A stretch of 64,000 nt of DNA from Gigantopelta aegis. Taxonomy: Eukaryota; Mollusca; Gastropoda; Neomphalida; Peltospiridae. The notes under the pieces were generated by a model. That model ran no database searches. It worked only from the letters and a program-made list of their open reading frames with translations, and had not been told where the DNA came from. The position numbers and the translations under genes were made by a program. Where the stretch lies: NCBI RefSeq assembly GCF_016097555.1, contig NC_054701.1, positions 37,267,492-37,331,491 on the forward strand, read 5' to 3'. Below are positions 25,540-42,002 of the stretch, one piece after another (the first letter of the stretch is position 1; each line of letters begins with the position of its first letter).

Positions 25540-25548
25540 GAGAAAACT
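25540..25548. repeat. Target-site duplication, left copy (GAGAAAACT)
   Basis: GAGAAAACT immediately precedes the left terminus of the large foldback element and is repeated exactly after its right terminus at 41994-42002. Confidence 0.8.
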
Positions 25549-25870
25549 GGCTCTGTGAAGTTGGTTACTTATTCCTCGTTCCTCGTTCCTTATTCAATAT
25601 CGAATAAGTAACTAGAAAGTCAGTTTCACATTCGCTTTGCGCGTACTACATGTTTAAATTTATCGACTGGTAAAGTCTGTGTGAGGCCATGCTATATTGT
25701 CTCAACAAGTAAAAATTCGGAATTATTGTAATAAATCACAAATATTTTACTCCTTTTTGCCAATAAATGACCAGCAGCAACAACAACATCAACATCAACA
25801 ACAACAACTACTATTACTTCTACTACTACTACTACTACTACTACTACTACTACTACTACTACTACTACTA
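25549..25870 (+). repeat. Left terminal inverted arm of the foldback element
   Basis: Pairs with 41715-41993 in inverted orientation, including TTCACATTCGCTTTGCGCGT and TTTATCGACTGGTAA. The inner edge is a CTA repeat, mirrored by the TAG repeat of the right arm. A following ATT repeat (about 25877-25912) is present only on the left. Confidence 0.88.
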
Positions 25871-25998
25871 ATTAATCTTATTATTATTATTATTATTATT
25901 ATTATTATTACAATTATTATCGTCAACGTCACCATTACGGACAATCAAAGTGACATAATAACATAGCATGTAATTTGTCACACCCCACCACCAATACC

Positions 25999-26076
25999 CC
26001 TCTCTCTCTCTCTCTCTCTCTCTCTCTCTCTCTCTCTCTCTCTCTCTCTCTCTCTCTCTCTCTCTCTCTCTCTCTC
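25999..26076. repeat. (CT)n microsatellite
   Basis: About 39 CT units between the left terminal arm and the satellite; absent from the right arm. Confidence 0.97.
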
Positions 26077-26099
26077 AGAACATGTATGAATATAATGAC

Positions 26100-38345: not shown

Positions 38346-38454
38346 ATAAACACTTTTATCAAATATAATCTTGTTATACGGTATATACTACATGATAAAA
38401 ACAATAGGGGTCATCCCGTATTCTATATCTCCCTCTTTATCATATGATAAACAT

Positions 38455-41400
38455 ATTATGTTTCGATTCAGTATCGTTTATATGCAATATGTTTTGATGC
38501 ACCTATACCCCATGGACCGGGCAAGGCTGGGTGTCAAAATGTTCAGACGTATTCTAAGTTCATATCTAATGTAGCGGGGTGGTGGTCCATGCCGTCTAAG
38601 CCATCGGCACAACGTCGTTCGTGTATGGCCTGTCACCATAATGAATATTGCATGAAAACGCATAATCGTGTATATGCAATATATTTTGAGGCACTTATAC
38701 CCCATGGACCGGGCAAGGCTAGGTGTAAAAATGTTCAGACACATTCTAGATACATATCTAATGCATCGGGGTGGTGGTCCATGCCGTCTAAGCCATCGGC
38801 ACGACGTCGTTCGTGTATGGCCTGTCGCCATAATGAAAATTGGCAGAAAACGCATAGTCGTGTATATGCAATATATTTTGATGCACTTATACCCCATGGA
38901 CCGGGCAAGGCTAGGTGTCAAAATGTTCAGACACATTCTAAGTACATATCTGATGCATCGGGGTGGTGGTCCATGCCGTCTAAGCCATCGGCACGACGTC
39001 GTTCGTGTATGGCCTGTCGCCATAATGAAAATTGGAGGAAAACGCATAGTCGTGTATATGCAATATATTTTGATGCACCTATACCCCATGGACCGGGCAA
39101 GGCTAGGTGTCAGAATGTTCAGACACATTCTAAGTACATATCTAATGCATCGGGGTGGTGGTCCATGCCGTCTAAGCCATCGGCACGACGTCGTTCGTGT
39201 ATGGCCTGTCGCCATAATGAAAATGGGAGGAAAACGCATAGTCGTGTATATGCAATATGTTTTGATGCACCTATACCCCATGGACCGGGCAAGGCTAGGT
39301 GTCAAAATGTTCAGACACATTCTAAGTACATATCTAATGCATCGGGGTGGTGGTCCATGCCGTCTAAGCCATCGGCACGACGTCGTTCGTGTATGGCCTG
39401 TCGCCATAATGAAAATGATAGGAAAACGCATAGTCGTGTATATGCAATATATTTTGATGCACCTATACCCCATGGACCGGGCAAGGCTAGGTGTCAAAAT
39501 GTTCAGACACATTCTAAGTACATATCTGATGCATCGGGGTGGTGGTCCATGCCGTCTAAGCCATCGGCACGACGTCGTTCGTGTATGGCCTGTCGCCATA
39601 ATGAAAATGGGAGGAAAACGCATAGTCGTGTATATGCAATATATTTTGATGCACCTATACCCCATGGACCGGGCAAGGCTAGGTGTCAAAATGTTCAGAC
39701 ACATTCTAAGTACATATCTAATGCATCGGGGTGGTGGTCCATGCCGTCTAAGCCATCGGCACGACGTCGTTCGTGTATGGCCTGTCGCCATAATGAAAAT
39801 GGGAGGAAAACGCATAGTCGTGTATATGCAATATATTTTGATGCACCTATACCCCATGGACCGGGCAAGGCTAGGTGTCAAAATGTTCAGACACATTCTA
39901 ATACATATCTAATGCATCGGGGTGGTGGTCCATGCCGTCTAAGCCATCGGCACGACGTCGTTCGTCTATGGCCTGTCGCCATAATGAAAATGGGAGGAAA
40001 ACGCATAGTCGTGTATATGCAATATATTTTGAAACACTTATATACCCCATGGACCGGGCAAGGCTAGGTGCAAAAATGTTCAGACACATTCTAAGCACAT
40101 ATCTGATGCATTGGGGTGGTGGTCCATGCCGTCTAAGCCATCGGCACGACGTCGTTCGTGTATGGCCTGTCGCCATAATGAAAATTGGAGGAAAACGCAT
40201 AGTCGTGTATATGCAATATATTCTGATACACCTATACCCCATGGACCGGGCAAGGCTAGGTGTCAAAATGTTCAGACACATTCTAAGTACATATCTGATG
40301 CATCGGGGTGGTGGTCCATGCCGTCTAAGCCATCGGCACGACGTCGTTCGTGTATGGCCTGTCGCCATAATGAAAATTGGCAGAAAACGCATAATCATGT
40401 ATATACAATATATTTTGAGGCACTCATATCCCATGGACCGGGCAAGGCTAGGTTTGAAAATGTTCAGACATATTATAAGTACATATCTAATGCATCGGGG
40501 TGGTGGTCCATGCCGTCTAACCCATCGTCAAACGTCGTTCATGTATGGCCTGTCGCCATAATGAAATTTGGAGGAAAACGCATAGTCGTGTATATGCAAT
40601 GCATTTACATGCACCCATGGACCTGGCAGGACTAGGTGTCAAAGTGTTCAGACATATTCTAAGTACATATCTAATACAACGGGGTGGTGGTCCATCACGG
40701 CTAACCCATCGTCACGACGTCGTTCGTCTATGGCATGTAGCCATAATGAAAATTGACAGAAAACGCATACTGGTATATATGCAATGCATTTACGTGCACT
40801 TATACCCCATGGACCGGGCAAGACTAGGTGTGAAAATGTTCATACATATTCTAAGTACATATCTAATACAACGGGGTGGTGGTCCATGCCGTCTAACCCA
40901 TCGTCACAACGTCGTTCGTCTATGGCCTGTCGCCATAATGAAAATTGGCAAAAAACGCATACTCGTATATATGCAATGCATTTAGGTGCACTTATACCCC
41001 ATGGACCGGGTAAGACTAGGTGTCAAAATGTTCAGACATATTCTAAGTACATATCTAATGCAACGAAGGTGGTGGTCCATGCCGTCTAACCCATCGTCAC
41101 GACGTCGTTCGTCTATTGCCTGTCGCCATAATAAAAAGTGGCAGAAAAGGCATACTCGTATATATGCAATGCATTTACGTGCACTTATACCCCATGGACC
41201 GGGCAAGACTAGGCGTCAAAATGTTCAGACAAATTCTAAGTACATATCTAATACAACGGGGTGGGGGGTGGGGGGGGGGGTGTTGTCCATGCCGTCGCCA
41301 TAATAAAAATTGGCAGAAAACGCATACTCGTATATATGCAATGCATTTACGTCCACTTATACCCCATGGACCGGGCAAGACTAGGTGTCAAAGTGTTCAG

Positions 41401-41720
41401 ACATATTCTAAGTACATATCTAATACAACGGGGTGGTGGTCCATGCCGTCTAACCCATCGTCACAACGTCGTTCGTCTATGGCCTGTCGCCATAATGAAA
41501 ATTGGCAGAAAACGCATAATCATGTATTTACAATATATTTTGAGGCACTCATATCCCATGGACCGGGCAAGGCTAGGTTTGAAAATGTTCAGACATATTA
41601 TAAGTACATATCTAATACAACGGGGTGGTAGTCCATGCCGTGTAACCCATTGTTACGACGTTGTTCGTCTATGGCCTGTAGCCATAATGAAAATTGGCAA
41701 AAAACGCATACTCGTATATA
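38455..41720 (+). repeat. Right ~194-bp satellite array (about 17 units), inverted to the left array
   Basis: Units read CCCATGGACCGGGCAAGGC, ATGTTCAGACACATTCTAAG, GGGGTGGTGGTCCATGCCG, CGACGTCGTTCG and GCCTGTCGCCATAATGAAAA, the reverse complement of the left array. The inner part (to about 40400) is mostly the TCTAAGCCATCGGCAC type and the outer part (from about 40500) is the TCTAACCCATCGTCAC type. Frames of up to about 490 codons are open on both strands but change register at units of unequal length. Confidence 0.95.
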
Positions 41721-41993
41721 GTAGTAGTAGTAGTAGTAGTAGTAGTAGTAGCAGCAGTAATACTAATAGTCGTTGTTGTTGCTGCAACTCATTTATTTGT
41801 AAAATATTTCTGATAATTACGATAATACCGAATTTTTAATTGTTTTTGATAATATTGCAAGGTTTCAAAAAGACCTTACCAGTCGATAAATTCAAACATA
41901 TAATACGCGCAAAGCGAATGTGAAACAGAATTTCCAGTTACTTATTCGATATTGAATAAGGAACGAGGAATAAGTAACCAACTTCACAGAGCT
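41715..41993 (-). repeat. Right terminal inverted arm of the foldback element
   Basis: Begins with a TAG repeat, then GTTGTTGTTGCTGCAACTC, ACCAGTCGATAAATTC, ACGCGCAAAGCGAATGTGAA and ends CTTCACAGAGCT, the inverted counterpart of 25549-25870. Confidence 0.88.
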
Positions 41994-42002
41994 GAGAAAA
42001 CT
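41994..42002. repeat. Target-site duplication, right copy (GAGAAAACT)
   Basis: An exact copy of 25540-25548, directly outside the right terminus. Confidence 0.8.

Follow-up and report, generated by a model that had tools for sequence, protein, structure and literature searches.

A family of unusually large, non-autonomous foldback transposons with satellite-filled arms in the gastropod Gigantopelta aegis

What kind of structure places two kilobase-scale arrays of a single tandem repeat, pointing in opposite directions, between inverted termini? This question is raised by a 64,000-nucleotide stretch of the Gigantopelta aegis genome, hereafter the window (NCBI RefSeq assembly GCF_016097555.1, contig NC_054701.1, forward-strand positions 37,267,492 to 37,331,491). 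We find that the structure belongs to a real, mobile, non-autonomous foldback family that has satellite arms and is unusually large. It has inserted as a whole unit with a 9-bp target-site duplication (TSD) at many sites, and its copies vary in array length, in the orientation of the core and in the combination of ends. It is very probably a cut-and-paste foldback DNA transposon that depends on a transposase acting in trans, and whose arms carry variable arrays of a 192-bp unit.

The element in the window spans positions 25549 to 41993 (16,445 bp) and lies between two exact copies of the 9-bp sequence GAGAAAACT (25540..25548 and 41994..42002, plus strand). The plus strand of the window contains this sequence exactly twice, starting at 25540 and 41994, and the minus strand lacks it; both copies are flush with the inverted termini. 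The termini pair over positions 25550-25855 and 41992-41719, with 78.8% identity across 307 columns (BLAST). Their outermost base is unequal, being G on the left and A on the right (right end read outside-in). In each arm, the order from the outside in is a terminal inverted repeat (TIR) of about 220 to 260 bp, a (CTA)n microsatellite, and an array of the ~192-bp repeat. The element thus shows one mark of foldback elements, namely long, inverted arms with tandem repeats inside them. A sequence-only reading of the window had proposed a foldback element with this exact duplication, an inverted match of about 300 bp, and opposed arrays of one unit in both arms, and each of these proposals is borne out.

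The left arm (5,580 bp) comprises an L-type TIR (25549..25806, plus strand), a spacer rich in microsatellites (25807..26076, plus strand; (ACT)n at 25807-25870, (TTA)n at 25878-25920 and (CT)n at 26000-26076), and a satellite array with two degenerate edges (26074..31128, plus strand), within which Tandem Repeats Finder (TRF) places 24.9 copies at 26251-31039. The right arm (3,515 bp) mirrors it on the minus strand, with an array of the same unit (38474..41720; 17.0 TRF copies), a (TAG)n microsatellite that mirrors the left (ACT)n (41719..41770), and an R-type TIR (41771..41993). The two arrays are mutually inverted and 87.9% identical over 3,133 columns in the self-BLAST of the window, or 90.9% over 3,291 columns when the arms are compared alone. 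Between them lies an unstranded core of 7,350 bp (31129..38478), which lacks long open reading frames (ORFs) and contains tandem repeats of ~160 bp and 25 bp. Apart from ORFs made up mainly of satellite, the element has a single ORF of at least 130 codons, with 136 codons counted from stop to stop. The left TIR also contains an inner inverted repeat at 25549-25620 (GTTACTTATTC ... GAATAAGTAAC), a candidate transposase site.

If this is a mobile element, the same unit should recur elsewhere with other duplications. The sequence-only reading had called for such a search, and we made it across the host assembly (1,149,253,464 bases in 5,216 contigs; C1 to C15 denote large contigs). The terminal 23-mer has 52 matches at up to two mismatches, compared with none for a reversed-pattern control. 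Allowing up to three mismatches gives 70 matches against 17 in the control, so that the 18 matches at exactly three mismatches are near the control level; one of these nonetheless exposed a locus on C1 (C1:26.42M) as two adjoining elements, A and B. Searches with the left and right ends returned 42 matches (best 40 of 121 candidates scored) and 40 matches (best 40 of 71), respectively.

Inverted TIR pairs are discernible within ~17 kb at 14 places, and these pairs were tested for TSDs. A perfect, flush 9-bp duplication is present at 8 of the 14, every one with a different sequence. By comparison, 182 mismatched left-right flank comparisons gave a maximum of 6 of 9 matching bases. The eight elements range from 1.7 to 16.4 kb: in addition to the window element, they lie at C9:3.24M (CTAAAAATC; 2,760 bp) and on C5 (TTTGAATGC; 1,689 bp), C6 (TATTAGTTT; 2,329 bp), C14 (CCCACTGAC; 13,419 bp), C4 (CTATATAGC; 14,421 bp), C15 (CGCCGTCAT; 11,280 bp), and C1 (element B of C1:26.42M, GCGACAGAG; 7,104 bp). 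Two further pairs come close: an 8,570-bp element on C7 has a duplication matching at 8 of 9 bases, and at C1:26.97M the sequence ATTATTAGG flanks a 2,027-bp element at either end, with a 1-bp offset (one extra base). The duplicated nonamers have no common motif that we could see by eye. Dispersed copies with shared termini and target duplications, a second mark of foldback elements, are therefore found. Copies of the arms with different duplications, as anticipated, occur on C1, C4, C5, C6, C9, C14, and C15.

The interior of the element recurs together with its ends. Among 18 loci examined for architecture, 15 contain the satellite. Complete copies have a TIR, (ACT)n, an array, a middle part, an inverted array and a TIR, with strongly differing array lengths, and some copies (C7 and C1:26.97M) have a single array. 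The window core matches copies on C14, C7, C4, and C886 and at C9:6.36M at ~91 to 99% in long collinear blocks (lower in some short blocks), and it matches the C15, C13:41.96M and C1:26.42M copies in part. A core probe detected additional copies in the genome (best 40 of 1,306 candidates scored). The window core is interrupted by a short interspersed nuclear element (SINE) with a tRNA-like head (37166..37557), flanked by a 19-bp duplication (37147-37165 and 37558-37576), and the corresponding site is uninterrupted in three sister cores (C7, C4, and C14). The sharing of the core among copies, together with these SINE-free sites, argues that the core is an old, shared component and no local accident. 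The giant foldback family suggested by the sequence-only reading holds up.

The ends also vary in how they are combined. Termini sort into three types, L, R, and M. The window and C4 elements are L/R, C1:26.97M is R/L, C9 and C5 are M/L, C14 is M/R, and C7 is R/M, its M end being just 86% identical to the reference. The left end of C6 is intermediate, and both ends of C13:41.96M are nearest to M, at 86 to 88% only. For C1:26.42M, the end-type tree covers the right end of element A and omits that of element B. The C4 ends are of the same types as those of the window (99.2% for L and 94.7% for R), yet its core is inverted. Exchange between inverted arrays would yield both the mixed end types and the flipped core. 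Variation in arm length and internal rearrangement among copies, a third mark of foldback elements, are therefore both seen.

These features fit the following mechanism. A transposase supplied by another element would bind the termini (RGCTCTGTGAAGTTGGTTACTTATTCC...) and move everything between them, leaving a 9-bp duplication. The 192-bp array of each arm would lengthen or shorten by unequal exchange. Because the arm arrays are inverted and similar, they could also recombine, which would flip the core, swap ends among copies, and generate short derivatives (1.7 to 2.8 kb). We infer that the transposase is of MULE (Mutator-like element) type and that unequal exchange and arm recombination cause the variation among copies.

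The satellite itself appears to belong to the element. A length of 192 bp is found in 111 of the 193 monomers measured at 14 loci, and one of 194 bp in 27, so that the usual unit is slightly shorter than the ~194 bp first estimated. A search with the unit gave 397 matches (best 40 of 83 candidate regions scored), of which ~150 were listed and form the basis of our census of loci. The listed matches fall at 27 satellite loci, 24 of which have a terminus within 20 kb. The remaining three are associated with core sequence: C8:78.52M has it ~3 kb away, C12:11.61M passes from array into core (97.6% over 328 bp), and C994 passes from a degenerate inner array edge into core (97.4% over 77 bp). Thus, among the matches listed, no locus (0 of 27) is a free satellite array away from both terminus and core. 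This suggests that the array is private to the transposon, all 27 listed loci looking element-derived. Arm copies that fail to end at these termini had been named beforehand as evidence against a mobile unit, and the same census offers none. The related suggestion that the element spreads satellite DNA stands insofar as the array travels within the element; a free array left behind by it is not seen among the matches listed.

The 192-bp unit has three open frames, and ORFs within arrays reach 492 amino acids. We considered whether the satellite is coding. Site diversity shows no difference among codon phases (permutation P = 0.62), and crude nonsynonymous-to-synonymous ratios, from the 111 monomers of 192 bp out of 193, are 1.01, 2.24, and 0.88. 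The unit therefore has no coding signature. Array growth is not confined to the arms, since a core unit of ~65 bp (about window positions 34930-35004) is expanded in the C1:26.42M, C13:17.88M, and C3039 copies. Long runs of this unit (C13:17875344-17879582 and C3039:661-2570) constitute a second satellite-like expansion in the family. At C15:23.05M (locus L026, positions 1295-9994), an array with a ~960-bp unit lies beside a TIR; every unit contains a piece of the same SINE as in the window, and there are nine such pieces. This is possibly another array born beside these termini.

The genome contains many MULE domains (150 of 346 candidates scored), and Merlin-type (IS1595-type) domains have 53 matches. 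Transposase and element intervals were compared by eye, with distances computed for eight close-looking matches. The nearest of these matches lie beyond the C15 element, at 12.9 and 9.8 kb from it. A second host MULE type, besides the one compared below, has ends that are not clear. Merlin elements leave duplications of 8 to 9 bp. MULEs leave 8 to 11 bp, a range that includes the duplication found here, and Rehavkus elements leave 9 bp (PMC6446971); MULEs have been detected in every mollusc genome analysed in one survey (PMC10294476). Because the duplication is 9 bp, our best guess is a MULE or Rehavkus-type helper, with Merlin as the rival.

A 4,972-bp copy at C13:41.66M was considered as an autonomous relative and rejected: its satellite arms enclose ~0.9 kb, and it has no duplication. 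The ~0.9-kb middle includes an ORF fragment that also occurs in another inverted repeat family. That family has its own inverted arms around the fragment (loci L043 to L046; C3:51.84M, C3:96.69M, and C10:28.33M), and the fragment has 58 matches (111 of 111 candidates scored). Distant matches fall within ORFs of 848 and 847 amino acids, the former without a Pfam match above the cut-off.

Several observations weigh against a transposon moved in trans by a MULE-type enzyme. Four of the 14 TIR pairs have no duplication, namely C1 element A, C13:41.96M, C13:41.66M, and C11:22.27M, the last of which is truncated at its right end. A count made by hand assigns 26 of the 52 termini to the 14 tested pairs, and no facing partner was found for the other 26, which indicates that broken or contig-edge copies are common. 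An empty allele was not seen: the 200 bp adjoining the left end match only the window (best 40 of 1,143 candidates scored). Three of the 18 loci examined for architecture (L023, L025, and L026) show a terminus together with the microsatellite but give no satellite match, L023 ending at a contig edge, and the middle of C13:41.96M is mostly N and unreadable. None of the 150 scored MULE matches (of 346) or the 53 Merlin-type matches lies between paired termini, and the one host MULE type that could be compared (489 amino acids, two copies) has termini that differ from those of the element. The sequence-only reading had linked the element to MULEs and looked to an autonomous relative with a MULE transposase between the same termini; none appears among the 150 of 346 candidates scored, and we do not carry the claim of MULE descent forward.

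How far do these points favor other explanations? Local inversion can create inverted satellite arrays, and the missing duplications at four TIR pairs would suit an immobile local inverted duplication, or an assembly artefact of satellite, in which the 9-bp repeat arose by chance. We regard this as extremely improbable, because unlinked sites have the same termini, related content, and eight different perfect duplications, against a null maximum of 6 of 9. Helitrons are not known to create a target duplication or to have long TIRs, and this element has both. That leaves next to no room for a satellite-bearing Helitron or Helentron (pearl-like), as in oysters, despite the satellite-like arrays that bivalve Helitrons and Helentrons are described as carrying (PMC7492417 and PMC5139131).

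Two further alternatives concern the parts of the transposon rather than its mobility. The helper might come from a superfamily other than MULE that leaves 8- to 9-bp duplications, such as Merlin, with the foldback form being convergent as in Galileo of the P superfamily. We consider this somewhat unlikely. Merlin-type DDE domains do occur in the genome, and the foldback form has been described as convergent (PMC3573991 and PMC3169594), but no Merlin-type match lies between paired termini, and the MULE and Rehavkus duplication sizes fit equally well or better (PMC6446971). The satellite, in turn, might be an older, independent genomic satellite captured into both arms. We also tested derivation of the monomer from the TIR or core, and its similarity to them does not exceed that of shuffled controls, so that an origin from these parts is not obvious. 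Capture nonetheless seems unlikely, as all 27 satellite loci among the matches listed adjoin a terminus or core; unlisted matches may include a free array. A non-autonomous foldback transposon with satellite arms remains the preferred reading.

The design of this transposon is known from smaller fly elements (Tetris, Galileo, and FB), and it is the size and the scale of the arms that stand out. Drosophila FB and sea-urchin TU elements likewise have inverted arms of tandem repeats, with short units (tens of base pairs) and smaller arms. Tetris of Drosophila virilis is also a non-autonomous foldback element, with an outer flanking domain followed by ~220-bp tandem repeats, duplications of 8 to 10 bp, a noncoding middle, and a short relative, DAIBAM, that resembles a miniature inverted-repeat transposable element (MITE); its transposase is reported as not found (PMC4079207). 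Tetris differs in having TIRs of at most 1,735 bp, with three or four repeats in the allelic copies described (PMC4079207). In the element studied here, the arms measure 5.6 kb (~25 copies) and 3.5 kb (~17 copies), and the whole unit is 16.4 kb long. Unlike Tetris, it has a conserved 7-kb core and a host from another phylum; the two are likened by their descriptions. Tetris repeats also occur in separate satellite-like arrays of up to 66 copies (PMC4079207), whereas no free array is seen among our listed matches.

Galileo, a Drosophila element of the P superfamily, shares long TIRs with internal repeats, expansion of its arrays, chimeric copies, and a proposed exchange of ends, and differs in its known P-type transposase, its ~210-bp unit in at most three copies, and its TIRs of ~0.9 to 1.3 kb (PMC3573991). 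Such TIRs are reported to exchange sequence, and long TIRs are viewed as a convergent trait (PMC3573991). Tm1 of root-knot nematodes has foldback-like composite TIRs, MITE-like and non-autonomous groups, and mostly 9-bp duplications (8 to 10 bp in 45 of 53 complete elements). In contrast to our family, one Tm1 copy has a MULE (Phantom-type) transposase, and the word satellite is absent from its description (PMC3169594). Rehavkus has a 9-bp duplication and a minisatellite near its 3′ TIR, and differs in its transposase with a PHD finger, its TIRs of 26 to 400 bp, and its reported range of arthropods and annelids (PMC6446971). Among the open-licence papers listed by our searches, we found no comparable foldback family from molluscs, Repbase lying outside the search. 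With this family, the satellite-armed foldback design extends to molluscs.

Here, a transposon has kilobase-scale repeat arrays built into it and takes them along when it inserts, as target duplications demonstrate at several sites. The efficiency of DNA transposition is reported to drop beyond ~6 kb (PMC6431247), which makes units of 11 to 16 kb with perfect duplications notable. It is conceivable, although quite unlikely in our estimation, that the satellite arms are functional. In that case, array pairing or repeated binding sites would bring the distant ends together and allow a cut-and-paste transposase to move 11 to 16 kb, making the array a selfish device for bypassing the size limit that belongs to the transposon alone and could also serve as a nursery of new satellites. 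Array-length variants, three types of end, and an inverted core all occur in a single genome, which allows array growth, recombination between inverted arms, and any aid of the arms to the mobility of large transposons to be tested.

Other features lie in or near these copies. The left flank of the window element (25040-25337) is another high-copy repeat (best 40 of 1,143 candidates scored), and tRNA-like SINE heads occur just left of the element (25337-25408) and in its core (37168-37239). An Rfam search of the window gave nothing at gathering scores. Locus L022 has two adjacent open frames (7700-9305) outside the core of a left-truncated copy, and these contain PC4 and BIR domains. Elsewhere in the window, non-long-terminal-repeat (non-LTR) retrotransposon fragments with endonuclease, RNase H, and reverse transcriptase domains occupy 48048-57605, including a partial second copy (49645-50834 versus 56772-57935; 69%). 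Positions 43410-44535 and 62404-63462 form a direct duplication (87 to 92% identity), an interstitial telomere-like (TTAGGG)n tract lies at 11841-11912, and an ORF on the minus strand at 5745-6638 matches DUF716.

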